A stretch of DNA of 64,000 nucleotides. Origin: Physcia stellaris (lineage: Eukaryota > Ascomycota > Lecanoromycetes > Caliciales > Physciaceae). Below, piece by piece: positions 18,084 through 64,000 of the stretch. The stretch lies in NCBI GenBank assembly GCA_018902385.1, contig JABSSW010000009.1, forward strand, positions 744,001-808,000, in the 5' to 3' direction. The notes below the pieces were generated by a model. That model was not told the DNA's origin. It saw only the letters and a program-made list of their open reading frames with translations, and made no database searches. Made by a program: the position numbers and the translations under genes. The number at the start of each line of letters is the position of its first letter. Positions within the stretch are counted from its first letter, which is position 1.

Positions 18084-20963
18084 ATGATAGGGTCTCAGTC
18101 AATGCGACATGGCCATGTCGTTTTGGCGGGGTGGGACTGCCTGCTCGACTTGGTCCACGGTGGCAGTGCCGAGGTCGTCGTGAATGGCGAATCACTGCGG
18201 CTTGCAAAGGTAGTCGCTGTTGCAAGGTGAGTGATACTAATCTCACTCAAATCTCCGTGCGGACAGTTGGCGAACGAGGTTCCGATGTGGGATTGAATAG
18301 CATGGTTATCCTTCTCAGTCCCGTCGTTGCATATTTTCTGAGGACCTTACACTAGCCTGCTCTGTCCACGATTGTTTTCCACGCCCTTTAAAATATCACC
18401 TTGACAGTCACTTCAAAGCCCAAGTTTCACCACGAGAGTCATCTCAATTAACATGAGGAGCTATGTTTCTTTCGCTTTCCCGAGCGCTTCAACTGGTTTT
18501 ATAAACACGGTAGCGCTATGCTGACATGGGTGAGCAATGGTACAGGTACAATGCGTCAGTGACTCTGAGCAAAGCCATCATCCCGCGGGTGAGGGCTAGC
18601 TCCGAATTCCTTACAAACTGCCTCGCGCGTGGAGATTGTGTTTACGGTGAGTCTGACTAGACGACTCCCTGCATATGCACTCACAGATTGAAAGGGGTCA
18701 ATACCGGCTTTGGTGGCAGTGCCGATACACGAACGGATGACACGTATGGCCTGCAGCGATCATTGCTCGAAATGCTCCAGTATGGCATTGTCGATCTCCC
18801 AAGCCAAGATAACCGACAAGCCTCCGATTCTGAACATACTTTGGATAATCGATTTTTCGCCAGAGCGCTACCAAATACAGACCCATCCAGCTCCACTTGC
18901 ATGCCGGAAGCATGGGTTCGAGCATCAATGGTCGTTAGGACTAATTCCCTCGCAAGCGGTAATTCAGGGGTTCGTCCAGAACTGATTTACTGCATCGCTG
19001 ACCTCCTTCGAAACAACATCATACCAGTCGTTCCACTTCGGGGCAGCATATCCGCCTCCGGCGATCTCAGTCCGTTATCATACATCGCTGGAGCAATCCA
19101 AGGCAATCCAGGCATCAATGTCTGGGCTCATGAGCCTACAACCGGTCGCCGTACAATCCTCACGGCCAAGGCAGCACTAAAAGCGGCCTCAATAACGCCG
19201 GTAGAGCTCGGTCCCAAGGAAGGCCTCGCCATCGTCAACGGCACGGCAGTATCCGCCGGCGCCGCTGGCTTGGCCCTTCATGACGCTCACTGCCTCGCAG
19301 TACTATCCCAAGTACTGACGGCAATGGGCGTAGAAGCGTTGCGTGGTACAGACGAGAGTTTCGCTCCTTTCATCGCAGCTGTACGACCGCATCCGGGCCA
19401 AGTCGAAGCAGCGCAGAACATCTCCTCCTTTCTCAAAGGCTCTAAACTCATAGTCTCCCACTCCTCCAACGATCATTCCATAATGGACGATGGCTCCCTG
19501 CGCCAGGATCGATACTCGATCCGGACCTCCTCGCAATGGCTGGGCCCACAGCTCGAAGACCTCCTCCTAGCGCACGATCAGCTCTCTACGGAGTTCAACT
19601 CCACGACGGATAACCCCCTCATCGACCCCTCAGGCCAGGGAAAGATCTATCACGGCGGCAACTTCCAAGCCATGGCGGTCACCTCCGCGATGGAGAAGAC
19701 ACGCAGCTGTCTACAGATTATCGGGAGGATGTTATTCGCGCAGTGCACCGAGCTCATCAACCCAGCACTGAACAACGGCCTCCCCCCCAACCTGACAGCC
19801 GACGAACCGAGCAAGAGCTTCCTGATGAAGGGCATCGACATCGCCGTCGCGGCGCTGCAGGCCGAGCTGGGGTTCCTGGCCGGAAGCGTGGCGGCGAACG
19901 TGCAGACGGCGGAAATGAACAACCAGGCGCTCAACTCGCTGGCGCTGGTCAGCGCGCGGTACACGCACACCGCGCTGGACGTCCTCTTCCAGCTGAGCAG
20001 CTACTACCTGTTCGCGCTCTGCCAGGCCCTCGATCTGCGCGCCATGCAAGCCCGCTTTCTCTCCGCCCTCCAACCCTCCTTCTTGGCTCTAGCGACGGAG
20101 TCCCTCGCCTCCGCCGTCCCACACCGGGACATGGAGCCCCTGAAAGCGGAGCTCTGGCCCCGCCTGCTGAAAGAGCTGGCCCAGCGCACGACCCTCGACG
20201 CGGCGCACCGCGTCCGCGACGCCCTCGAGGCACTGACCCCGCTCGTGCTCCGCCACGGGGATCCCTCCGCGCCGCACCTCCAGCGGTGGATGAGCGCCGC
20301 GAATACGCTCACGATGGCGGTGTATACCTCGACTCGCGCCTCCTACATTGCGGCTCCGGACGCGACGCCGCTGCTGGGACATGCCGCGAGCAGGATGTAT
20401 ACTTACGTACGGAAGGAGCTGGGGGTACCGTTTATCCACGGCGATGGCGAGTATGAGAATCCGAATTTGGGCGCGGCGGTCATTACGGGCGGGGGAGGGT
20501 TGTGCTTGATGAGGGGGCGGGTGGAGGGACAGGGGTGGGAGTGGGTGGGGAGAAGGGTGGTGATATCAATACCGGAGAAGAGGATGAGGGGAAACAGACT
20601 ATTGGTGATAAAGTCTCGGCTGTTTATCGGGCGCTGAGGGATGGGAGGGCGTTGGGGCCTGTTATGGAGTGTTTGAGGGATGTTGGTGGTGGGGAGGAGG
20701 GGGTGGGGGAGGGCGAAGTTGTGAGGTGGGAGGCGGTTGGGGGAAGGGTGAAGGGTGAAGGGGAAGATGGAGGGAATGGGGCGTTCGATGGGGCTATTGG
20801 ACTGGCTGCATGGGTTCTGTGGGGGCGTTTGAGGAGTGTGGATCTTGGCCGTTGGGAATGGGGTCTTTCGAAAAATGGATATCGAAAAAATTGTAGGATG
20901 GGGGTTTCGAGAGTAATAGATGGGACCCTTACGGGGATAATAGACAAGAATTGGTGTGGATAG
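18084..20963 (+). CDS. Phenylalanine/histidine ammonia-lyase family enzyme (PAL-type)
   Basis: MIO-dependent aromatic amino acid lyase; in fungi usually phenylalanine to trans-cinnamate plus ammonia. Model: join(18084..18226,18546..18646,18695..20450,20498..20963), about 821 aa. Exon 1 gives VVVNGESLRLAKVVAVAR, exon 2 the next helix, and exon 3 opens with GVNTGFGGSADTRT, the mobile-loop region. The MIO tripeptide Ala-Ser-Gly is at about residues 202-204 (ISASGDLSPLSY). NGTAVSAGAAGLAL, STTDNPLI and QSVA-like helices (LAGSVAANVQTAEMNNQALNSLALVSAR) follow. The conserved C-terminus (TIGDKVSAVYRALRDGRALGPVMECL) is in another frame; a 47-nt intron (20451-20497, GTATGA...GGGGAG) restores it, otherwise the protein would end in an unrelated tail. 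The extreme C-terminus after about residue 735 is low-complexity and unlike the family. The start may instead be the ATG at 18102. PAL versus HAL cannot be settled by eye; length and C-terminus favour PAL. Confidence 0.86.
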
Positions 20964-21646: not shown

Positions 21647-23056
21647 TTAGACATTTAAGAACATTCTGGCGATTCGAATTGCGAAGTCAGGATCGTGAAC
21701 GTCAAGATAGTTGTTCCAAGTACTGAGCGTGACATGTACCACACGGCACTCCGTATCGTAAGCGAGGAGTGCGTGGCGATGAGAGGAACCCTGGCCTTTG
21801 AAGTGTTCTAGATAGATACCTGGAACGAGCATGAAGGAAAACATAAGCAAGCTAAGGAGTGGTAGCATTATTAGTGGAATATAATATGAAGAGTCGTGTA
21901 TCTTTGATCGGTGACGAAATATATCCAAGTCTAGCTTCTGCGTTCCGTAGCGGTATCCTAGGTAGAAAACGTAGCCAGTCGTACAGGATAGTAACAGCAA
22001 GAACACGAAAAGGTATGACATTGAAAAGAATTCCGACCACTCTCCATCGGAGTCTGATTCCCAACCCGGATTACTAAATAGCCACCCTTTGGAACATATG
22101 GCGGCTGGCGAGCAAAGCGAACTCCCAGGTGCATCAACAATATCGGACTCGAGACAACGGTACCTGACGGAGAAGTCAGGAGACGGAAATCCAAAGTAAT
22201 CTGGCCATTTGGTTTTCAAGGCAATGCACGTTGCTATCGCTTGAATAAGAGTGACCACAGAAACAGTCCAAATAAGAAAACGTCGGCGGGTAGACTTGTT
22301 ATTAAGGACGCAATCGTAGGGATGAATGAACAACGACGCAAGTTGGCGCTCAGGAGCTGTCCAGGCCAAGAGTGACACAGGTTGGCTATTGCTTGGGTCT
22401 GAGATCAGAACCCCAAAGCTATACATCCAATAGCCGAAGCTACCGACGTCCCATGTTATGGAGAAGTAGTCAAAGATGCTAAGGCCTTTGCAGTCGTCCT
22501 TATCGTGATATTTGGTAAAGAAAGCATTGTAGAGCCATCTGAAAGCAAAGACAAGCGTTATAAGAGTATAAAACCAAGTCGTCACTGGAGAGGAGCCGTA
22601 TGCTGACGGTAGTGGCTTTGAAGGTATTACTTTGAATCCATGTAAGCAACTAGCGAGACTGCACCAGTCGTACGACGGTGCAGTCTCGTTATCGGAGCCA
22701 GTTGCCCAGCCAATATACTTGGATTGAGCCAAAAAATGCCGTCCACGCGCTGCGTTATCCGACCAAACGTCCCGCAAGGTCGAAGTATTCCCAATATCCC
22801 GGGAGCCTAGATCGGTCATAACCAGAGTACAGTTGACCGGTTCTCGAGGCGTCGAGTTAGAGCATTCTTCAAAGCGACTGTTTTTATAGAAGGGAAATTT
22901 GGGATCGCTGACGTCGAGGCCAGTTGTGTCGGTTTTAATTAGCAACGCAAGAATCACTACGGCAGCAGCAGCGCACAGCCCAGCCCCAATCATGATTGCC
23001 CAGACTGCAGCCTGTCCTATTCTCCGATAAATGTTCTTCGACGACCGGATAGCCAT
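21647..23056 (-). CDS. Polytopic membrane protein of unknown function
   Basis: An intronless 469-aa frame. The N-terminus has a transmembrane helix at about 16-41, then an extracellular-type loop rich in Cys and N-glycosylation sequons (NST, NCT, NTS, NET). Further hydrophobic segments lie at about 158-182, 200-220, 265-285, 345-370 and 395-418, so about six helices. Short basic loops (STRRR, FRHRSK) mark the cytosolic side. It resembles fungal orphan integral membrane proteins that occur in accessory regions; I cannot assign a family. The start Met at 23056 is followed by RSSKNIYRR, a plausible cytosolic N-terminus. Confidence 0.65.
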   Translation of the reverse strand: MAIRSSKNIYRRIGQAAVWAIMIGAGLCAAAAVVILALLIKTDTTGLDVSDPKFPFYKNSRFEECSNSTPREPVNCTLVMTDLGSRDIGNTSTLRDVWSDNAARGRHFLAQSKYIGWATGSDNETAPSYDWCSLASCLHGFKVIPSKPLPSAYGSSPVTTWFYTLITLVFAFRWLYNAFFTKYHDKDDCKGLSIFDYFSITWDVGSFGYWMYSFGVLISDPSNSQPVSLLAWTAPERQLASLFIHPYDCVLNNKSTRRRFLIWTVSVVTLIQAIATCIALKTKWPDYFGFPSPDFSVRYRCLESDIVDAPGSSLCSPAAICSKGWLFSNPGWESDSDGEWSEFFSMSYLFVFLLLLSCTTGYVFYLGYRYGTQKLDLDIFRHRSKIHDSSYYIPLIMLPLLSLLMFSFMLVPGIYLEHFKGQGSSHRHALLAYDTECRVVHVTLSTWNNYLDVHDPDFAIRIARMFLNV

Positions 23057-23611
23057 TAGTCAATCTTTTCCGGCCAACAGTTGTAAACCAAGTTCAATCC
23101 AAATTGGAGTTGGATATCTGTTACTGGTGATTGGAGTCGTTAGATGATTACAATCATTGAACCACCGCTTGTCTTTCTGGAAAACCGATGCTCAGAGCTG
23201 CAATCTTGAAAAACTTTGTACTGGATTGTCCTCGTGTACCAAGTCGAAGGCGAAGCCGCTCAATAAGATTATTGATATTGAAGAATTGAGAAAGTGGAAA
23301 TTATGAGAAGCAAGGCATGAACGGGGCAGCATCGCATTATTACAAGCAATGGCCATGGTGAAGTATGTAATCGGGGTGCCTAATGAGGTGCATGCTTCAC
23401 CTATGGAAGTCGTACTGCGAGCAGGGCTGTAAAGCGACAAAACACTCATTCCGAAATTTCGGGACCGTCTGCAGCAAATGTTGAAGAGTAATAGGTCAAA
23501 TTGCCGTATATCCATTCCATTCTTATTGTCTGGTAGGACATAGGTTGGATATAAATACAGCGGCGCTTACAGAATGATTTTAATGCTGTCTACTCCGTAC
23601 CTTGCTAAATA
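23057..23611. other. Intergenic
   Basis: Upstream region of the minus-strand membrane protein; nothing recognised. Confidence 0.4.
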
Positions 23612-24765: not shown

Positions 24766-24777
24766 CATATAAGCTCC
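24766..24777 (+). promoter_or_regulatory. TATA-like box upstream of the first CaaX gene
   Basis: CATATAAGCTCC lies 265 bp before the ATG at 25031. A similar string, CATAAAGCTC at 25677, lies 250 bp before the ATG of the second gene of the cluster. The shared sequence and spacing suggest a common promoter layout; the call rests on similarity only. Confidence 0.35.
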
Positions 24778-25030: not shown

Positions 25031-25156
25031 ATGGACCCGATCGAGCTTGCAAGTCAGCCTCCAGTCGTGAACGAAAATGTGGAGAATGTCACTGTCATTG
25101 AAGAACCTGATAATTGTTGTTGTGGATGTTGTCCCAACCCTTGCGTGGTTATGTGA
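25031..25156 (+). CDS. Tiny cysteine-rich CaaX-box protein, copy 1
   Basis: A 41-aa protein. Residues 1-28 are polar and acidic (MDPIELASQPPVVNE). The C-terminal 13 residues are CCCGCCPNPCVVM, with Cys at 29, 30, 31, 33, 34 and 38. The last four (Cys38-Val-Val-Met) form a canonical CaaX box, so farnesylation, removal of VVM and carboxymethylation are expected; the neighbouring cysteines could be palmitoylated. The start is the first ATG after an AT-poor leader. No intron. It is the first of three similar genes within 2 kb on one strand. Known fungal a-type pheromone precursors are also tiny and end in CVVM, but they lack such cysteine clusters; CYSTM-like stress peptides have the clusters but not the CaaX. 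Function unknown. Confidence 0.65.
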   Translation: MDPIELASQPPVVNENVENVTVIEEPDNCCCGCCPNPCVVM

Positions 25157-25926
25157 AGCCGGTGTGCCAAGAGAATACGGACATACAGGTTGAGTGCGGG
25201 TTGGCAAAATGGGGGATAGGAGGTTGTTGTTGTAAAATAGGAGGATGGGTGGGTCGAGAGATTCCAGAGGAGCGGGGCTTGACGGCTCTCATGTTTGAAA
25301 TATTCGAAAGGGGTAACTATATGAAGCTGGTAGCTCGTCTTTGAGAACTTATGCCACTGCCTACGAGTGCGCGAATGTGCTGGTTGCTGTTATGCCGTGA
25401 TTGAAGAAGCTGAAATTAAAGTAGGGAAAGTTGGGAGTGATGCTTTATTGACTGCGTAGAGGAGAGCTGAGATTATCTTTGTAGTATGTCAATGTCTCTT
25501 TCCAAAGATTTCGTGGTCATACTTTCTCGCGATTGGAGAGTCCTCGATGACCGCACCGTCACTCTCATTATCTCGAATGGTCATCTTGACTCCTTGTTTG
25601 AAGTGTAGGTATTTTAGATGTGACGGAAGATGAGTCGTTTGGCCAATGAATCAGTCACAGCCCCACGAGCCACAAACATAAAGCTCGCTCCCTGAACTCT
25701 TCCTCGCTACCTTCCCCATCAGCAATCACCCTCCAACGAACGGCGATCTCCTTACCTGAGCACTACTGACCTGCGAATTGGATATTCCATATCCTAGGAG
25801 ATATAACGGGTGAACAGGTACATATGATAGAGCCTAAGAGATACGTCGATGATGATACTAATATCTAGCTACAGCACGTTCCACTCACCTATTCTACTAC
25901 CACCAACCTCCTCGCTCGTTGACACG
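25157..25926. other. Spacer between CaaX genes 1 and 2
   Basis: No independent gene. It holds the TATA-like CATAAAGCTC at 25677-25686 and a pyrimidine-rich leader. Confidence 0.45.
25677..25686 (+). promoter_or_regulatory. TATA-like box upstream of the second CaaX gene
   Basis: CATAAAGCTC, 250 bp before the ATG at 25927; compare the site at 24766. Followed by a C/T-rich leader in both genes. Confidence 0.3.
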
Positions 25927-26052
25927 ATGCCGACTTCAATAAGCAGCTCCACAATCTCCATCTTGAAGCCAACCAAGCCGAAGCAAGGTTGCTGGTATGA
26001 GGATGATGATAGTGCCTGTCCGGGTTGTTGTTTTTGTTGCGTGGTTATGTGA
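25927..26052 (+). CDS. Tiny cysteine-rich CaaX-box protein, copy 2
   Basis: A 41-aa protein, the same length as copy 1. The N-terminus is MPTSISSSTISILKPTKPKQ and the tail CPGCCFCCVVM, with Cys at 22, 31, 34, 35, 37 and 38; Cys38-Val-Val-Met is a CaaX box. The SSSTISILKPTKPK segment matches SSTTSIIKPSGPK of copy 3, which shows paralogy. The frame stays open upstream to ATGs at 25849 and 25852, and the stretch just before 25927 (SSLVDT) still resembles copy 3 (PSLPVD), so the true start may be upstream, giving up to 67 aa. The DNA TGCGTGGTTATGTGA at the 3' end is identical to copy 1, so the tail coding sequence is shared at base level. Confidence 0.65.
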   Translation: MPTSISSSTISILKPTKPKQGCWYEDDDSACPGCCFCCVVM

Positions 26053-26770
26053 GGCCTAGGTCGAAAACAGGGAGGTGAGATGGAGAAGTGAGATGGGGGT
26101 ATAGAGATTTGTGGGAGGAATGATTTGAGAAAGGATGTTGGAGGTCCCCAACTTTGAAACTACATGGCATATACTCGAAAAGTAGCAAAATGGATGATCA
26201 GGTTGATAGAGATCTAACTTGCATGCGATGCTATCAAACATGACGAGATTGATATGAGGCTGCAATGTGCTTCATGCTTATTCACTGTTCGTCAGGGTTG
26301 TTCCGCTACAAGGAGCAACTCAGAGAAAGCCATGCGGGATGCTCTCTGCCCGTGTAGTACCGAGATGTGAACAGACCTCTACTTTAGGTGTTGAGGATGA
26401 GTGATTCCCAAATGGAAGATGGAATGATTGGGTGCCAGCCCGCTGAATCCTGCCTTGGCTGTCCACGTAAGCGAGCAGGGGTGTGCTGCTACTAATCGCT
26501 AAGCCTAATTCCGATTTCCGGTTTTGAGAAGCAAGCCCTGGGCTCAAGCGACTCTCTCTCTCAAACTTGGAAAGCTCGGCCACTTCCTCTGCGTCAATTG
26601 CCCGGTGGGCATCGCTCGATCTCTCCATCAACTGATCAGAACACTGGGCTTTACGACAGTGACCTGGGTATTAGGTTGTAAGTACATCAAGCGTTGCCAA
26701 TCGGAATTCCGCATTGACTGACCAGAGCAAAGTCAAGCAGATTTACCCATCTCCCTTCATACTGCGAACA
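26053..26770. other. Spacer between CaaX genes 2 and 3
   Basis: No gene recognised; short frames on the minus strand (26320-26631) have no pattern. Confidence 0.45.
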
Positions 26771-26947
26771 ATGACAGCAACAATCCCCTCGCTACCCGTT
26801 GACGCGGTCCTGCCATCTGCGGGCAGCTCCACTACCTCAATCATCAAGCCAAGTGGGCCCAAGACTCAGTGCTGTGGTTGCGACTGTGGCGGTACGGAGT
26901 GCGATTTCTGCTGCATACCCATCCCCTGTCCATGCACCATCATGTGA
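26771..26947 (+). CDS. Small cysteine-rich CaaX-box protein, copy 3
   Basis: A 58-aa protein. The N-terminal half is MTATIPSLPVDAVLPSAG, followed by SSTTSIIKPSGPK, paralogous to copy 2. The tail holds ten cysteines: CCGCDC at 34-39, then 44, 47, 48, 53 and 55. It ends Cys55-Thr-Ile-Met, again a CaaX box with Met last, favouring farnesyl. The cysteine spacing (CCxCxC) could bind metal as well as accept lipids. No signal peptide or transmembrane helix is present, so membrane attachment would depend on lipidation. Its Cys region is longer than in copies 1 and 2. Function unknown. Confidence 0.65.
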   Translation: MTATIPSLPVDAVLPSAGSSTTSIIKPSGPKTQCCGCDCGGTECDFCCIPIPCPCTIM

Positions 26948-27285: not shown

Positions 27286-28947
27286 TCAGCATGGGACCTG
27301 TTGGCTATTTGTACCTGCACCAGTTACTGAATTAGCGCCTGATTCAGACGGTACCATGTCTTTTTGGTCCCTTTTCCAACAAAGATACTGTTCCATCGCT
27401 AGTTCATACTCTCCTAACGGTCGGCCATCTATGTCGCGTGTCTCTTGTACTCCATCTCTTATCTGACACCACTTACTCCACACAACCTTCATAAGACCAC
27501 CAACCCCAAGGATGAAGGGTATCAATTGCCCGAGCGTCGTGAGGTGTTGCAGTCCACTTATGTTATTCCAAGTGATGGTCAGCTCGACCTGAACAATCAG
27601 AGTTGTAATGAGGAATAGTTTCTGCATTGCCATTCCCACCCATACACGAGCTGATTTGCTCAAGGCAATCTGAGATAGCTGTACATCAGAAGCTATTGCG
27701 AGCATTCGCCAGTCTGGGGCATGCGAGACCTTGGTGAGTGCGTGTATTCGCTGGTAAAGTCGAGGGATACGCAGCATTGTATGTTCGCCATGTGCTTTCA
27801 TATGCAAAGAGAGCGTCCATCGTTGGCTAAGTGATGGATTGCTGGTCCATTGCATCTTTAACCAGATCCAAAGACATTCTCTGTATCTGCATTTATTCCC
27901 GTTATGCTCATATGAACTTTGAGGCACGTGGAATTTCACACGTCCATGCCAGAGTTGGACCAGACGACTCTTTTGCAGCTGTGAGTTTCTTTTGAAATAC
28001 ACTGAAAAGACCAAATCAAGAAAATTCTCGGCTTGTTTTACAGTAGTAAAAAAATCGAGTCGGGTCTTGAGCCGCTCTGACTCTTTTTGTGCATTGGTTT
28101 GCGTTTTGTTCGTGTCATTATTGTTGTTTGGCGTCCTGTTACAAGTCTGCAACGATACGGGGAGGGAGGTGGATGCTGGTGATGGTTGTGCTCGAGACCC
28201 TTGACTTGCTGTTGCTGAATTCGGAATCACCGGAGACCCAGTAGCTTGGAGAGTACTTGTCGATATTCCCGGTAAGCATTCCTTGCTTTCGCTAAGCTTG
28301 CGGTACGCTACAGCAGCATCTATAAAGATTCTCCGCGTTTTCTTCTGCCGCCACCTTTGCAGCAGCTCTACCACATCGGCGAAGCCCAGTGTCAGAACCG
28401 AACCGATGGCTAAGTAAAGAGACATGGCACGACCAACAACTCGAAGCCATCCATATATACTGAATCTTGCAAAGAACCAGATATAAGTGGCATTTTCGTC
28501 GGCATGAACAGATCCACCGTCTCCTGTTGACGCAGAAGGACTCCTGCATGGTGTCTCTAGCATGATATCCAGGCCTCGCCACCAGAAGCAAACGTTGAAA
28601 AGAAGTCCTGCACCCATGATGGTCAATCTAGAGATGAGACGCTCCACTGAGGTTCTAGAGTATCTGGAGCTGTATTTCTTGGAATCCATGACACTGATGA
28701 GGCCAATTACTAGGCCGATCTGGAGTAAAAGAAAAGCCTCCACCGCATAGGTGGTCTGAGCTTTCGAGACATAGATGAAGCCTGCGATGACCAGGGCAAA
28801 TAGGAAGATTTTGTTCGTCTCCTGCAGAACCTGCGCCTCGCGGAAGTGAAAGAAACCTGCAAACCATACAGCAAGAGCTTGTGTGTAGTAGCCGATTCGA
28901 ATGCCGATGCCATAGATATCTGCGTTGCCTGCAAACCCACATTCCAT
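27286..28947 (-). CDS. Fungal polytopic membrane protein of unknown function
   Basis: An intronless 553-aa frame. The N-terminus ECGFAGNADIYGIGIRIGYY is a signature I associate with a large unnamed family of ascomycete membrane proteins. Hydrophobic helices lie at about 18-35, 47-62, 68-87, 108-130 and 168-195. A long hydrophilic loop (about 200-330) has a run of Asn/Thr/Gln (TPNNNNDTNKTQTN). Two further helices lie near the C-terminus (about 450-475 and 490-510). The closing segment GRPLGEYELAMEQYLCWK looks cytosolic. No enzymatic motif is visible. Similar proteins are often near heterokaryon-incompatibility or other accessory genes, but nothing like that is next to it here. Confidence 0.7.
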   Translation of the reverse strand: MECGFAGNADIYGIGIRIGYYTQALAVWFAGFFHFREAQVLQETNKIFLFALVIAGFIYVSKAQTTYAVEAFLLLQIGLVIGLISVMDSKKYSSRYSRTSVERLISRLTIMGAGLLFNVCFWWRGLDIMLETPCRSPSASTGDGGSVHADENATYIWFFARFSIYGWLRVVGRAMSLYLAIGSVLTLGFADVVELLQRWRQKKTRRIFIDAAVAYRKLSESKECLPGISTSTLQATGSPVIPNSATASQGSRAQPSPASTSLPVSLQTCNRTPNNNNDTNKTQTNAQKESERLKTRLDFFTTVKQAENFLDLVFSVYFKRNSQLQKSRLVQLWHGRVKFHVPQSSYEHNGNKCRYRECLWIWLKMQWTSNPSLSQRWTLSLHMKAHGEHTMLRIPRLYQRIHALTKVSHAPDWRMLAIASDVQLSQIALSKSARVWVGMAMQKLFLITTLIVQVELTITWNNISGLQHLTTLGQLIPFILGVGGLMKVVWSKWCQIRDGVQETRDIDGRPLGEYELAMEQYLCWKRDQKDMVPSESGANSVTGAGTNSQQVPC

Positions 28948-29786
28948 TCAGACTCTAGATTCGGGAAATACAAGAAGTCAGGGTTGCAGATACTTGCTGT
29001 TCAATCATGTAACGAATGAGCAATGGCAGAGGAGCCATCATGTATGTACATGTAGTGGCAAGGCTCTCCATCTGAGCCTCTTTTACCGCCCAACTCAGGG
29101 GGCGGGTTCAAAACAACAACGAGACCTTTCGCATACACATACGGGTTCAAACTACCTCCGTACCAATCAAACATCACGGTCACCCAGAAGATGTAGCGCG
29201 TTCGCGATTATGGAGGGCAGTTTCATCCTTATGCACGTAAGCGCTGGCTCGGCTGATCCGTTACGCTCGTTGTTATTTGCCAAGGTAGATGAAAACCTTC
29301 TTCGAATCATCGGAAGCTCCGAGGGAGTTTTACCGCTCAAGAAATGACCTTAGTGACTTGGAGAGTATAATTAGCAATATATAATAACATACTGTTGTGA
29401 TTTCAGACTTACCTGCCGCAGCCTCTTTTTGTACGTCACTTGCTGCCTAGGAAGGATAAATGGATTTTGTGGTCGAAAGAGCCTCGCTACAGGCTGTGGA
29501 GTTCAGCGGGAGTCAAGCCCCTGAGTTTTTGAAAGATCATGTTGCTCCTTGAGACGAGAGATACCCGCGATATATTGAATCAACATTAGTGATACCTCCC
29601 TCTGAGCGTCCCCCTCCCTTTCTCTCGCCTACAGCCTGCTTCAATGACTGTGACCTTTGATCTTTTCTTATCGATCAATTTTGTTCGAGAAATGCAGGGT
29701 AGGTAGCATGTACCTTGCACCGGAAAGGCATGGAAATGTGCCATTCGTCAAAGAAATTTTGCCTTAGTCCTGATGCCCTACGAAGA
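28948..29786. other. Intergenic
   Basis: About 840 bp; a 140-codon frame at 28925-29347 overlaps the 5' end of the membrane protein gene and shows no family pattern. Confidence 0.4.
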
Positions 29787-45247: not shown

Positions 45248-48200
45248 TCAGCTTTGCCGGCCTGCTTGAGAAGAGTTCCTCCTATGCGAAGTGATTAGTG
45301 TAGACTGGTTCAGGTGGCCGGACCCGCCTGGATCCTGAGGTCCAGAGTCCGCATGTACAGCATCATCGTTAAGGCTATTCAGTCGCTCGCGCTCCTTGTC
45401 TGTCGATTCTTCTTCATTCTCGACTGGGGTATCCGTTTTTGATGACTGCGATACTGGATTGGTGGCCGATGGAGCGGTCGACGAGCTGAAAACATCAGCT
45501 TGCCGCTTCTCAAACCAGCCTCCTCGTTCCCATTCGCCAGGCCGATACAAACAGCTGTTCCGCGTTTCCTCCTCCACTATGGCACGGAGAAGCACACTAA
45601 GGCGATGGAAATCGACAGGCTTCAAGATCCAACCATCGAACCCACCGTCAATATACTTTTGCCGGTCTTTTTCCACTAGGGATGCCGATACAGCAATGAT
45701 AGGTATACGGTGGTTGAGCGAAGCGCGGTGCGACAATTGATCTGGATGGGTCTTTTCAAATGAGCGGATCAGCTTCGTCGAAGTCAAGCCATCAACGATG
45801 GGCATCTGAAAGCACGTCAGTGGAGTTTTCCAATGCCTTGATTGTGACCGACCTGCATGTCCATCAAGACAACATCAAAAGCCGTCGGCCTTTCTCCAAA
45901 CGCACTTGAGCATTCCTCACCATTGACGGTAAGGTGAACATTGTGGCCCTGTTTTTCAAGCCTTTTCCGTATGATCTTGCTGTTGATCGGATCATCTTCT
46001 GCGACCAGCACTGAGAGACATTCGGCTGTGACTGCTTCGACCTTGCCCACAGGCTTGTCAGGGACATCGAATAACACTCGGGATGGTGTCCGAATATGAT
46101 GTTCTGGCTTTCTAGGTGAGCCGCAACTTTCCTCCGCGGGTATGCGGACTGGTCTGATTGGAGTTTTCGAATCTTTCACCTTGCTCTGACCTGGGACTTT
46201 CCATGATGGGGTACCGGGCGGTTGGTGATGCTGAATTGCGCTGCCAGGTCTAGAGGATGATGGCGAGTATGTTCGTAATGATCGGCTTGAAGACTTTCCC
46301 AAGCCGCTATCGGGTTCATGGTGTTTTACTTGCATTACTGGTTCTTGGATTGCACCAATCAGCCGATCAACATCGCTTCTCGCACTCGATCCACTTCTGA
46401 TGCTTCTAAGACTTGGAACACTTTTCACACTCTGTAGGCTGTTCACACTTTCGTTGCTGGTGCGACGTGCCATATCCATTCTACTAACCGAGTTACTTCT
46501 CTGAGCACTTTTGTCGACAAGGAGCACCTCTCCGCTTTCAACAGGTGGTGTCTCCGGTTGATTGCTAGGTGTCAAAGGTGCCGCGGTCTCTGCAGCTGCG
46601 ATCTGGGCTTGTTCACCATTGTCAGATGGCAAATAGAAGCCAAGCTGGATGATAAAGCGAGTTCCCTTCCCTTCTTCGGATTTCAGGCGAAGTTGTCCAT
46701 TCATGTTTCGAATAATGCGAGCTACCAATGCCAGCCCTAGTCCAAGCGTTCTTTTCGTATCACTTGTAGCTTCAATGGCCTTGGTCGGTGGCGCAAGCTT
46801 CTCTTGAAGTCCTTCATCTGTCTCGGTCTGGACTTGTTCGAGTTCTCTAAACAGAGCATCGAGTTTCTCAGAAGACATTCCAATCCCGGTATCCTGTACG
46901 ACTACATCGATATCGGCATGATCTACAATTGTTTGAGGGTCAGCATGCGTTTAATAATGGAGACTCCTGCGAAAAGAAATTCCGAGCTCAGGAGCCAGTT
47001 AGAAATGGTGTCACGGTCAGTCATTTGAGGGGCCGCGTAGGCGGATGCTGATCACTAAGTCACAGATAGCTGTGAGATAACACAGAAAGTCTATTCCATG
47101 GTGTGATCCGATGTAATTGTGCTACTCGTGCATCGCCACTGATATCCTCGGTGTCGCAAAACGCATACCCATTCTTGGCATAAAGTATAGGAGTGTGACA
47201 TGAAAACGGCCTCATCTTTTGAGTTCGTCCCAGGTACCGTACGCATTGATTTGTAAGGGTGAATTGATGAAGAAAAAGCACCCTTTGATACCAGGTCATT
47301 GGACAGTGGAACGATGATGATAATGGGCTTACTCTACCATTTCATTGAAAGGAAAAGCACGTGGCGAAAGGACGAGGTAAAAGGGAACAAAAAAGGAATG
47401 GGAACGTTACCTCGAGAGCGTGTCGCTTGCCAGAGCTCTACCTTTACTCCTCCACTGGAAGTGTGCTGAATTGCATTGGCAGTCACATTTGCTATCACCT
47501 GACGTATCCTTCTTTGGTCACCTATTACCATCTGAGGTACTCCTTCGTGTTCGATGACTTCGTAACCGATGCGCTTGCGCTTGGCATCGCCGGCAAATTG
47601 ATCGGTAGCTTCTCTGACAGTAGCTGGGAGATTGAAGATTTCATCTTTAACAAGGTTGTGGCCTTCTTCTGTCTTCGTCAGATCCAAGAGATCGTTAATA
47701 ACATATATGAGCGATTTCGATGCCGAGTGAGATTTGGCTAAGTTGTCTCTCGTCTCTTGATCAATGGCGCCCTCGAGCGCAATTTCTAGGTAATTAATTA
47801 TGGCATTTAGGGGGTTCTGACTTCATGAGCGGAATTAGCAAGAAGGAGTCGCGTCAATTGGCTATTTTCAAGCGCTGCTTCCTTTTGTCGCCAAACCTCA
47901 ATGAATTTTCCATAGACTAGACATAGAACGGCGGCTGTCTCGGCCTGTTCTTCAGTCCATTCTCGGCACTTGCCAACGACTGTCTCACTCCAAGTTTTGA
48001 AGCTTTTCCTTGGCTCGAGATAGCCCTCGGTACCCTCTTTCACAAATTTCTCATACGGGTTTCCGGCCCACTTTACCTCGCGGACTTGGCCTTTTCTAAA
48101 GAAAACGATGAAATCATGGCCTTCGACAGAGAGCGGAACGATCAGCAACCCAGCAATGACACTAAAGCCTGGTGGGTACCGTAAGTCGGGGAAGTCGACG

Positions 48201-57943: not shown

Positions 57944-58569
57944 CTTGCCGCTCAGCTGTTCTCCGCGTTGCCACCACCTGCAGCTCTCGCCACAGAGAAA
58001 TCTACTCCTTGGATGCGGATGTAACGTCTGGGTGGTAGAAAGTTCTTATGTGTAGCTGAAGCGTCCCTCTTGGGGAACCGACGGTGACTGAATTGACAAT
58101 GGCGTCGACTGCGAGCAATTGAGGACCTTTAAGCACGACTGTTGGGAAAATGAAGTTGACCTAAGCCCCCCATGTGAACAGAATGAGTAGCCTATCACTT
58201 ATGCAAGGAGGTAACCCGTTGCTGGTCACTGGTGGTGGGTGATTTCAATGAGGTGGTCAATGAACAAAGGTGAAGTCTGGCATGCGGTGTTCTGTTCCAG
58301 TCAGTAGCTGATGCAAGATGCACCTCGGCACGCGATAAGAAGGTCATCTGATGTCATGGTCACGTGCTGTTGGCGATAACCGCTCTTGTGTCGAGCAGCG
58401 CTCTACGAGAACCACGGAACATGAATCTACCTACATAGTCACTTGTGATTGTAGTGTTGTAAAAGGTATTGATGATGTAGGATAGTAATGGCTTCGTCTG
58501 ATGGAAATTTCTTTAAGAACTAGTGATTGTTGTGCTGAGACGGAATAGCAGCTACAACTGTGCAGTCTG
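57944..58569. other. Intergenic, transition to AT-rich block
   Basis: Normal composition; no gene recognised. It ends at the sharp change to AT-rich sequence. Confidence 0.45.
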
Positions 58570-61500
58570 TGTTGAAGTAGAAATAGTTCATTGATTATAT
58601 CAATGATAATACTAAGTGTACAAAATTTGAAATTGAGATTTTCATCAGACTTTTTGCAATCTTAATTCTAAATGAATTAATTGCAACATTTTTTTTCGAA
58701 TCGAATTCGAATAAAATTTATTGACGAAAATGAATTTATCATTCAAAATTGATATGAATTTCATTTTACGTTGTAAAACATTTCAATATTCAATGTAGTG
58801 ATTTAAAATCGAAAAAATTCAACATGCTATGACAACAATACAACGTTTTTGAGTTTAATTCATGTTCAACATCTGAATAAAACAACGAAACTTGATAAAA
58901 ATCAAAATTTTGATAAGTTCGTCGACAAACATGTTTTGAATAAAAATGTAATATAAACGAATTCGATTAATTTTGATTTCGTTTCGAATGTAATGATAAA
59001 CAATATCGACGTGCTTGATGCGATCATGATGAATTGAATTTTCGACGAAAATTTTGACATTTTGATTATCGATATGTATTTGTAAAATAACGTATTTGTC
59101 ACGTTAATGATGAATGTGTAAATCGACGAACAAATTTCGAAATCACGTGATTTTTTTAGTAATCGTCGAAATGATTATATATTTTGCAACGCATGTGAAA
59201 ATGATCACGATAAATTGAAATTTTGACATTCAATTTATTGATTTTTCATTGAAAATGAAAACGTAAACGTCAGTTGATTTTTTAATGATCAAATCGTCAT
59301 CGTAATTGACGTCACAGTAATTTTGTGAATCAAAATTTTTTTTTCGTAAACAATGTTTAGACGATCAATGATATTGAAATAATCGAAAATATCGTTTGCG
59401 ACGTTCATGTGAATTTTGTTTGAATTTTGAACGAAACGATTGACGATAAAAATGACGTTAAAAACATTTGATTTGATTTCGATCATGACAAACATGACGA
59501 AATCAATTTTGATTTGATACAATTTTGTGTCGAATTTAAAAATTTGATTTTCGTTAAAAATCGAAACGAAATTCGTTCGTATTGAAATATGTATTGATTT
59601 GATTTCATTTCGATCAAATTTGACGACGATGCGTTTGATGTAAATTTTTTGATTGAATCGAATTTTTTTGCGATCACGATTTTTGATGACGATCATGTTT
59701 AAATAAAAATTAATTGATTTCATATTAATCATTTCGAAAACAACGAACAATTTTTTTTTGATTTTGTTGATTATGACGATGAAAAAAACAATGATTTTGA
59801 TATCGTCAATTCAAAAAATGAATATGAAATTTTTGAAATTTTTCGTCGTTGCAAAAATGCTGTGATCGACGTGTAAATGATGCAAATTCAATTTTTCAAG
59901 AAAAAATCTGCTAAACGTTCGTATCATAAGCGAAAAAATTGTTTAAAATCGTATAAAATTTTGTGAAGTTTGCAAATTCTTTTTTCGTTGTAATTTTCGA
60001 AATATTTAACGTATATTTTTATATCGATGAAATCGTAAAAAAAAACAGTTTTGACGTTCATTTGTTCGATTTTCAAATTCAAAAATGCGACGATGACGAA
60101 CAGAATTCGAAAAATCATTGATTTGATCACGAAAGCAAAAATTTGTTCGAAATCAATGTCATATTGTTGCAAATAATTTTTGACAATTCATCGAATTTTG
60201 TAACGAATTATTTTTTTTTCGACATTTCGTTTGATTTTGAAAATTCATTTATCGTTTAAAGATTTTCGATCATCGAATGTACGATTTATCAAAATTCATG
60301 TATTGTTTTTGTTCAAAGACTGAATTTCGTTTTCGACGACGTTCATTCAATTTGACGAATTTGAATTATTTATAATTTGTGTTCATGTATTGAGTTCGTC
60401 GTCATTCATATTGTTGAAAACAACGAAATTTTCAAAATTGATGACGTTTTGAGTTTCGATAAAATCAATTAACAATGAAATTGAATTGACAACGCATGAA
60501 TCATTGTGTCATTCGAAAAAACGCTCGACGAAAATAAAATTTTTTTCGATACAATTCAAAAAAACGACGAAATCGTCGAAAAAATGCTTTCAATTTGTCA
60601 GTAATTTTGTCATAACAACGTTAAATATTTTTGTCGTATTGTTTGATATAGACGAATAAACAAATGAATTCATAGAAAAATCAATTTGTTTGATTTGACG
60701 ATTTGAACGCATAATAATAAATTTATGAAAAATGATTGAAAATATGCTTTGTGAAATTTCTGATGCGAATTTGATTTTGCGAAAAATGATCGATTTATTT
60801 TTGAAAATGATAATTTTCGAAACAATAACGTTTGAAATTGTGTTTGAAATAATAAAACATCTTTTCTGTTCAAATGCAATGATTTCGTTAAAAATCGTGT
60901 ATTGTTTGAAAATTGCGACATCGTAAAAATCGACGTTTTTGATTTTGCGTATTTCGTTGTCGTTAAAAAATGAAATTCATACACGATAAATCGTGTCGTC
61001 GTCGTATTCAATGAAAATGCTTTTGTCATCGCGAAATTCGAAATGATTTTTGTGTTTGAAATTTTTGACGACGTACGCGATGATTTCAAACGAATACAAA
61101 TTAAAAAAATTTGAAACAATGTCGATAAGTTTTTCAATAAAATTTATGTCGTCAAAAAAAATCGAAAAACGACGTTTTTTGATATATGTCATAATCAAAG
61201 TGACGTTTGATCACAGAAAATCAAATATGTCGTCGTCAAATAACGTCGTTTGAATCATGATTGTAATCGTACGTTGATGAATTTCAGCGATTTCATTTAC
61301 GTTTTGAACGTCGATAAAAACGAATTCGAATAAAATGTTTTTGAAAATCAAAAATGTATCGAATTTGATGTTGCGAAATTCGAAATCATAATCAATTTTA
61401 ACGATTTTGATTTTCACATTGTATTGATTTTCAATCATGAAAATGTAAATCGAAAAATGAATCATTCATTTTGTTTTGTTCTTAATCGTATAAACATCAG

Positions 61501-64000
61501 TTTTTCGACATCAATCACAAATGAACGTGATGTAGCACGTTTTTTGTTCGTAATCGAATATCGAAATAAATACAAAATCAATATGTATGATGTGAAAAGA
61601 TTTTGAAACTCGTTTGATGTTTTCGTTTCGATTGAATTTTCGTTTAATTTTGATTTGTTTGCATATATCGCAGTGATTATTCGAAACGTCGTCAACATAA
61701 TTGATTTGCAAAAATTTAAAATATATTCGAAAAACAAAATAATTAAAATGTTTCAGTCGTTTATGTCATGTAAATAACGAAATAAACGAAACAATGATCA
61801 AAACAGTCATTTGACTGTTTTGCAACATAATTGCATAAAAATCATTTTCGCTCAAAGACGTTCAAACAACAAAAACATCACGATTTCTAAACACGTGATC
61901 GAATGTGTTTCAATGAATATTCTGTTTTTCGAAAGCAAATATCGAAAAAAAATTGACAAACGAATCGAGCATGTAATACATCGACAAAATAAAAATTTCA
62001 ATGATTTTTTCATTTGATAAAACGATAAGAAATTGTATCATGTTCAAATCTGAAATCGAAAAACGAACTTTATCGACGACTAAAACGATAAATTCGTGAA
62101 AACGAAATGATTGAATAAAATGTTTGTTTTTGCAAACATGAATATTTGCTTTCGAATCAACGTATCACAACATGTTGTTGATCGTTCGAACAATCGATAA
62201 AACACGTTTTCAATTAACGATCGATTGTGATTGTCAATTCGTTTCGCTTTTAACGTAATCGAACATGTTTTTGTTTAATCAATTTTTGTATGCAATGTTG
62301 AAATTTTGTCAAAAACATCGTTTGAAATCATGATGAGTTTGATTTGTTTCAACGCATTTAAAAAAAAAACATCACGATGATTTCACATATTTGAAAAATC
62401 TTGACGTGAAAATGAACGTCTGATTATCGTGAATACGTGTTCGTTTGTTTGACGATTTCGAAATCTGTGTGATCATGACGACGAATTTGAAAAATTGAAC
62501 GATTTTTGCATAATGACGAAATTCGAAACAAAATTTACTGACATTCGTATTGAATTCGATTCAATTGTTGCGTTGCTGTTGAACGAAAAAAAAATAAACG
62601 TGTTTCATTTTGACGAGCAAAATGTTTTGACAAATGACGAATATAATAATGAGAATTTCGATATTCATAATGATGAAATCATTTTGAATAAATTTCACGA
62701 CAACGACGAACGATTCAACGTCATTCGATTTTGAATTGAAATTTAAAAATGTAAAAATGATATTCATGACAAAAACGAACGTTTTTTTCTTGAATTGAAA
62801 TGCAATAACGATTCAACGTTTCAAAAAAATGTTTTGATTCAAAATAATGAAACGATATGAAACATGCACGAAATTAAATAAAAAATTATGTGTTTTGATG
62901 ATTTCAAAATCATGACGATTTTGAACGATTTTCAAATCAAACGTTTTGACGACGACATGTTCGTTCGTATAATTTTTCGCTTTGATTTCATTTGTTATGA
63001 AATTTTTGATAAAACGAATTCGTATGAATTTCGTGATAATTCATTCAACATTTAAAAATTGAAAATGATTTTTGATTTCAAATTTTCAAAAATAATAATT
63101 CTCGAAACGATACAATGATTTGATGTAAATCAAAAATTTGATCGAATGATTTTTCATTTTGATTTGAATACGTTTATTAAAGAAATGATATGAAATGATT
63201 ATCGTGTCTGTTTCGTTTCATGCATTTTCTTATTGTCAGAATTTATAAGCAATTGTGTAACGACGACGAAAGCAAATGCGTCAACTGTTTGATTTTTTCG
63301 AAATGACGATCGTATGATTTATTTCGAAACAGACAATGAAATAAAATAGACAAAAAGATGTATTGATATGTGTATCGAAAATAAATTGAAAATAATATAA
63401 CGAACAATGAGAAATACAAAAAGTTGATAAGAAAAAAAAAGAATAACGAAATCAATTATCTGTTTTGTAGAAAACGAATCAATGACACGATTTTCGAATT
63501 CAAAATTTCGTTCAAATTTTCATTTATGCGATACGAAAAAATCAACAAACGATCAAACGTTTGAACGAACAAAATAAACGAATGTTCAAACATTCGAATC
63601 AAATGTAACTTAACAATAAATTAATAGAAAAAATGAAATTTAATGTAAAAACATAATTTTCAACAATGAAATTTCATCGAAAATAACATCGATTCGAATA
63701 TGAAAATTCGATTTGAAAAATTTAACGCAAATAGCGCATTCAATTTGATAAAAAAATGTGCGCAAATGTTCAGAATTTGCGTGTGAAATTCGAATCGAAA
63801 TTTTGAATGACGATTGATGTTGATGATCGTTTGAACAATAATTCAAACATAAAATATCATGATGAAATGTTTTGACGACACGTAAATAAAACAAAATGTT
63901 GTAATGATTCGAATATCGCAATGAATCATGATATCGATCAAATGAATGTTTTGCGCACGATGTTGAAATGATAAAAAATGTAAATCGTTGTTTCGACGAC
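58570..64000 (-). mobile_element. AT-rich block with a fossil Ty1/copia retrotransposon
   Basis: From about 58.6 kb to the window end the sequence turns strongly AT-rich with no host gene. On the minus strand, pol relics occur in Ty1/copia order: integrase-like pieces at about 60.98-61.74 kb (zinc-binding and catalytic-core traces) and reverse-transcriptase-like pieces at about 59.29-60.17 kb. Integrase upstream of reverse transcriptase marks copia rather than gypsy. The left edge near 58570 begins TGTTGAAG and contains the palindrome ATTGATTATATCAAT, which could be a terminal repeat end; a partner was not found. The rest (about 62.3-64 kb) may be gag and repeat remnants or other decayed copies. 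The element is broken many times over (dozens of breaks) and old: only family-level residues remain. Confidence 0.8.

Follow-up and report, generated by a model that had tools for sequence, protein, structure and literature searches.

Three short cysteine-rich frames with CaaX endings in a fungal genome: candidate genes for lipid-anchored micropeptides

Our analysis of a 64,000-nucleotide stretch of fungal DNA (hereafter, the window) identified three plus-strand open reading frames of 41, 41, and 58 codons (copies 1, 2, and 3, respectively) that lie within 1.9 kb of one another and terminate in CVVM, CVVM, and CTIM, such that a C-a-a-X box stands exactly at the stop codon in 3/3 cases. A preliminary description of this DNA had reported three short plus-strand frames with cysteine clusters and these endings, and every one of these features was as described. 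The trio are real frames and probably real genes. As the best explanation, to which we accord a little better than an even chance, we propose that they encode cytosolic micropeptides that would be farnesylated at the CaaX cysteine, S-acylated on nearby cysteines, and thereby held at a membrane. The positions of the frames and of the candidate features upstream of them are collected in Table 1.

Table 1. Positions within the window of the three frames and of candidate features in their upstream regions
Feature	Position	Strand	Description
TATA-like string, copy 1	24768..24773	+	263 bases ahead of ATG
Copy 1	25031..25156	+	41 codons; C-terminal end NCCCGCCPNPCVVM-stop; 6 Cys; net charge -7
TATA-like string, copy 2	25678..25683	+	249 bases ahead of ATG
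Candidate leader intron, copy 2	25818..25868	+	GTACAT...ACTAAT...CTAG; covers all three upstream ATGs; relaxed pattern only, weak
Copy 2	25927..26052	+	41 codons (67 if ATG 25849); C-terminal end CPGCCFCCVVM-stop; 6 Cys
Candidate leader intron, copy 3	26678..26725	+	GTAAGT...CTGAC...CAG; strict pattern
Copy 3	26771..26947	+	58 codons; C-terminal end CDFCCIPIPCPCTIM-stop; 9 Cys

Besides the CaaX cysteine, copies 1, 2, and 3 carry 5, 5, and 8 cysteines, respectively, in the 25 residues ahead of the box. CC, CxC, and CxxC spacings occur in the trio and are strongest in copy 3 (9 Cys in 58 residues), and a serine/threonine-rich stretch is present in copies 2 and 3. The maximal 15-residue hydropathy over segments starting in the first 20 residues was 0.58, 0.45, and 1.03 for copies 1, 2, and 3; thus, the predicted products probably lack a strongly hydrophobic N terminus and would be made in the cytosol.

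Cysteine-rich frames ending in a CaaX box with Met are not in this window by chance. When the CaaX pattern was applied to frames of 15 to 400 codons among the 1,439 ATG-to-stop frames of the window, four were returned, three of which are the trio. More specifically, the window holds three frames of at least 25 codons ending in C-a-[IVM]-M, all of them Cys-rich (i.e., having at least four cysteines among the 25 residues that precede the box), relative to an average of 0.01 such endings in shuffled sequence, and 300 dinucleotide shuffles of the first 58 kb of the window yielded no Cys-rich frame of this kind. Six frames of 15 to 200 codons with Cys-rich tails were found in the window, three of them outside the trio. 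One of these three (26397-26495, plus strand; 32 codons), situated between copies 2 and 3, was rejected as a member because it carries no CaaX box. A potential fourth member at 28998-29012 (plus strand; CSIM-stop, 2 kb past copy 3) was likewise rejected: it belongs to a 17-codon open frame in which the sole Met is the last residue.

We extended the survey of Met-ending boxes to the 44-Mb assembly, with CaaX boxes ending in other residues being surveyed in the window. Two pattern searches returned 101 and 39 C-a-[IVM]-M-stop sites. As the corresponding backward-read controls returned 73 and 42, most of the genome-wide sites may be chance occurrences. Sites were read together with their upstream frames (100 of 101 plus 39 of 39, i.e., 139), leaving 130 distinct frames once identical ones had been merged; the site itself was confirmed in each of 141 loci, representing 138 distinct contexts. 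Ranked by the number of cysteines before the box, copy 3 came first among the 130 distinct frames (8 cysteines), copies 1 and 2 tied for second with one further frame, L087 (5 each), and the next frame had 3. L087 (C20:233104-233918) is the end of a 1,161-codon open frame, having an acidic, Cys-rich tail that closes with CCIVM-stop.

The preliminary description had treated the three copies as a tandem family, which held for two of the three pairs. Around their stop codons, copies 1 and 2 agree at 19 of 20 bases, in register, as that description had noted of their tail DNA (2 of 300 mononucleotide shuffles scored as high). Copies 2 and 3 have a 30-base ungapped stretch in common, in the same frame (0 of 300 mononucleotide shuffles), and the motif SS-T-SI-KP--PK that had been reported for them is indeed present in both. 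Pair 1-3, in contrast, displayed no detectable DNA similarity, its alignment score being reached by 150 of 300 shuffles. Aligning 14 codons of copy 2 with their counterparts in copy 3 gave 3, 3, and 5 differences by codon position, too few to prove selection. Two pairs among the three putative micropeptide genes thus appear detectably paralogous, on thin evidence. Protein-level searches of the genome with each copy retrieved only the query itself, with no dispersed paralogue.

The upstream regions did not extend this relationship. TATA-like strings had been pointed out ahead of copies 1 and 2, and both are present; they are no evidence of homology, because the alignment of these two upstream regions was no better than that of shuffles (129 of 300 reached its score). 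Homology of the upstream regions was rejected for the other pairs as well, with 43 (pair 1-3) and 219 (pair 2-3) of 300 shuffles reaching the scores. As for the leaders, the open frame of copy 2 can begin earlier, at ATG 25849 (67 aa), and three upstream ATGs (25824, 25849, and 25852) all lie between 25661 and 25926. Several relaxed-pattern intron candidates in this leader end at 25868, including the one in Table 1, and the 41-codon start of copy 2 would be right if its three upstream ATGs fall within a leader intron, as is plausible. The leader of copy 3 contains a second strict match at 26605-26659, whereas neither pattern produced a candidate in that of copy 1, which has one upstream ATG (24886). 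Since strict and relaxed patterns occur 0.6 and 2.9 times per kb, respectively, on the plus strand of the window, these leader introns are suggestions only.

As to the surroundings, the flanking frames at 21647-23059 and 27286-28947 had no Pfam match at 0.001 and are unrelated to each other, and a frame at 18661-20637 (plus strand) corresponds to an aromatic amino acid lyase (PF00221). From 58001 to 64000, G+C content drops from about 0.49 to 0.27-0.32, forming an AT-rich block that is possibly affected by RIP. Elsewhere in the assembly, an exact 25-base 5.8S pattern matched a single site (L142; C41, around 45945-45969), and the AT-rich, rDNA-like stretch around it appears, by eye, to carry C-to-T changes of the kind expected from repeat-induced point mutation; for taxonomic placement, we therefore turned from rDNA to Med7.

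We considered whether the trio might be untranslated, having arisen by chance in DNA that lies between genes or is transcribed without coding for protein. Synonymous codon choice amounted to 0.044, -0.002, and 0.017 bits per codon for copies 1, 2, and 3, relative to 0.030 ± 0.057 for coding pieces and -0.002 ± 0.053 for random sequence; codon choice was therefore dropped as coding evidence, having no power to distinguish the trio frames from random. A word-based search of a protein database retrieved no homologue for copy 3, nor for copies 1 and 2 searched together; this search requires three shared five-residue words and is a hard test for proteins so short. Fungal relatives are represented in that database, because Med7 from the window gave 340 matches in the same kind of search, its own entry included, with identities of 62% to Heterodermia speciosa, 61% to H. 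aff. obscurata, and 79% to another protein. Med7, a single gene, thus places the host near Heterodermia, which belongs to the Physciaceae (Caliciales, Lecanoromycetes); it and its Physciaceae kin are lichen-forming. Small genes are often unannotated. The missing codon signal and the lack of a homologue in the word-based search would both suit untranslated frames. Against them stand the shuffle and genome-wide tests, the crowding of three CaaX-Met stops into 1.9 kb, and the in-frame match between copies 2 and 3, and we consider this explanation improbable.

Lipid-anchored, cysteine-rich peptides are the best reading of the trio, because the predicted CaaX boxes end in Met, cysteines adjoin the putative prenylation site, and genes of the prenyltransferase and DHHC families are present in the genome. 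Matches to the prenyltransferase family PF00432 were found on C11, C28, and C60, with a weaker one on C73, and DHHC matches on six contigs; their presence is a weak test, since they are expected of any fungus. We infer that the trio are protein-coding micropeptide genes translated in the cytosol. Farnesyltransferase would modify the CaaX cysteine (Met being last), whereupon the last three residues would be removed and the new end methylated, and DHHC enzymes would S-acylate the neighbouring cysteines, such that the tails are most likely multiply lipidated. The product would be a short peptide on a membrane face, attached via one prenyl and several acyl groups, much like a Ras tail without the GTPase, and its likely job would be local to that membrane, where it might bind a lipidated partner, displace one, or keep metal or redox-active thiols in place. 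The prenylated cysteine of N-Ras is Cys186, five residues past Cys181; in copy 1, cysteines are found 4 and 5 residues ahead of the CaaX cysteine. Palmitoylation of N-Ras at Cys181 is an example of acylation near a prenylated cysteine (excerpt of PMC7893820), and Met-ending CaaX boxes are classically farnesylated, with cross-specificity having been reported (excerpt of PMC6550545). Prenyltransferases favour linkers whose residues are small or flexible and, ideally, hydrophilic, according to an excerpt of PMC1175975; the linkers of the trio likewise have small residues but are Cys-rich.

The dense cysteines would also suit metal binding or disulphides. Accordingly, the trio could be membrane-tethered metallothionein-like peptides, whose cysteines would bind metal at a site that the prenyl group anchors to the membrane, as the CC, CxC, and CxxC spacings, of which copy 3 is the clearest example, might suggest. 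However, these cysteines crowd the CaaX box, as for acylation; Pfam had no match above cut-off for the trio, the single one returned being to a domain of unknown function at E 0.22; and no such fungal peptide turned up in the literature at listing level. We regard this alternative as unlikely. Searches of solved structures with copies 3 and 1 gave nothing beyond chance-level matches (E 0.62 and above). Titles and abstract openings, subscription papers being mostly outside their scope, contained no description of such peptides, and the excerpt of PMC10949477 held nothing bearing on them.

In favour of the lipid-anchored reading, the genome-wide scan also returned several frames that resemble, by eye, known prenylated proteins, among them a Ras-like one (L009, ending in CCSRCVVM), a YKT6-like one (L108, CCVIM), and a Rho-like one (L047). 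The resemblance of the trio tails to the Ras-like and YKT6-like ones, again judged by eye, would fit decoys that mimic Ras, Rho, or YKT6 and titrate prenyl-binding or acyl-transferase proteins. We deem this proposal highly improbable.

An expanded pheromone-like set had been offered as another possibility, namely that the trio are a-type precursors that would acquire a prenyl group, be cut down to a C-terminal fragment, leave the cell, and be recognized by an STE3 receptor. The trio frames are short, carry CaaX at the stop, and include the serine/threonine-rich stretch of copies 2 and 3; putative Leotiomycete a-factors comprise 45-64 aa with an S/T-rich N terminus and end mostly in CTVM, with few CVVM and others (excerpt of PMC10569646). 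We nevertheless disfavour this interpretation and hold it to be quite unlikely, because a more typical a-pheromone candidate, L095, lies elsewhere in the genome and our search turned up a single STE3 gene (two exons, on C50; a lower bound from a six-frame search). One criterion for a-type precursors is a hydrophobic N terminus without a signal peptide, and the 6-11 residues ahead of the CaaX cysteine are taken as their mature segment (excerpt of PMC13037118). That segment would be Cys-rich in the trio, whereas known a-type mature segments have no Cys cluster and often contain GY, which the trio lacks. The missing GY is a weak point, since L095 is likewise without it; among the Leotiomycete candidates, 87 contain GY (excerpt of PMC10569646). 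The trio is thus probably not the a-factor, and may have some other exported role.

L095 (C27:482243-482092, minus strand) consists of two exons separated by a 68-base intron with ACTAAC and would encode 27 aa, MEPQTKITVPAPVAAAAHPGWNGCTVM. It resembles the M. grisea precursor, printed as MSPSTKNIPAPVAGARAGPIHYCVIM in an excerpt of PMC3068285, in PAPVA, short length, and CaaX, as judged by eye for a frame picked from 139 sites, and we regard it as a candidate a-type pheromone precursor. The a-factor had not been found in non-Sordariomycete classes before the Leotiomycete result (excerpt of PMC10569646, 2023), and the same scan now yields a candidate for a lecanoromycete near Heterodermia.

Genes as small as the trio escape annotation. 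If made and lipidated, their products would extend the range of prenylated peptides beyond GTPases, SNAREs, and typical pheromones. We put forward as distinctly unlikely the idea that they represent a new family of multiply lipidated, Cys-rich micropeptides, found in relatives of lichen-forming fungi, that would work at membranes or leave the cell as non-mating lipopeptide signals, possibly directed at the algal partner.

Several known systems share part of this architecture. Metallothioneins have a similarly high cysteine content with CC, CxC, and CxxC; the trio differs in its CaaX end and in its lack of a Pfam match above cut-off. Ascomycete a-type precursors are alike in length range and CaaX, to which the trio adds its five, five, and eight other cysteines. 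In seven Leotiomycete species, each genome encodes 2 to 12 CaaX/CPAX proteins of no more than 100 aa, which are short and CaaX-ended like the trio, a comparison made by description only, and one family of which has been proposed as the a-factor (excerpt of PMC10569646). HPP1, the h-type precursor of Trichoderma reesei, contains three (LI)GC(TS)VM copies and two Kex2 sites (excerpt of PMC3068285); it too is short with a CaaX end, but on reading the three trio sequences this repeat is absent from them. Finally, the dually lipidated tails of Ras and YKT6 have cysteines beside the CaaX cysteine, as do those of the trio, in which there is no GTPase or longin part and the tail makes up a large share of the protein.
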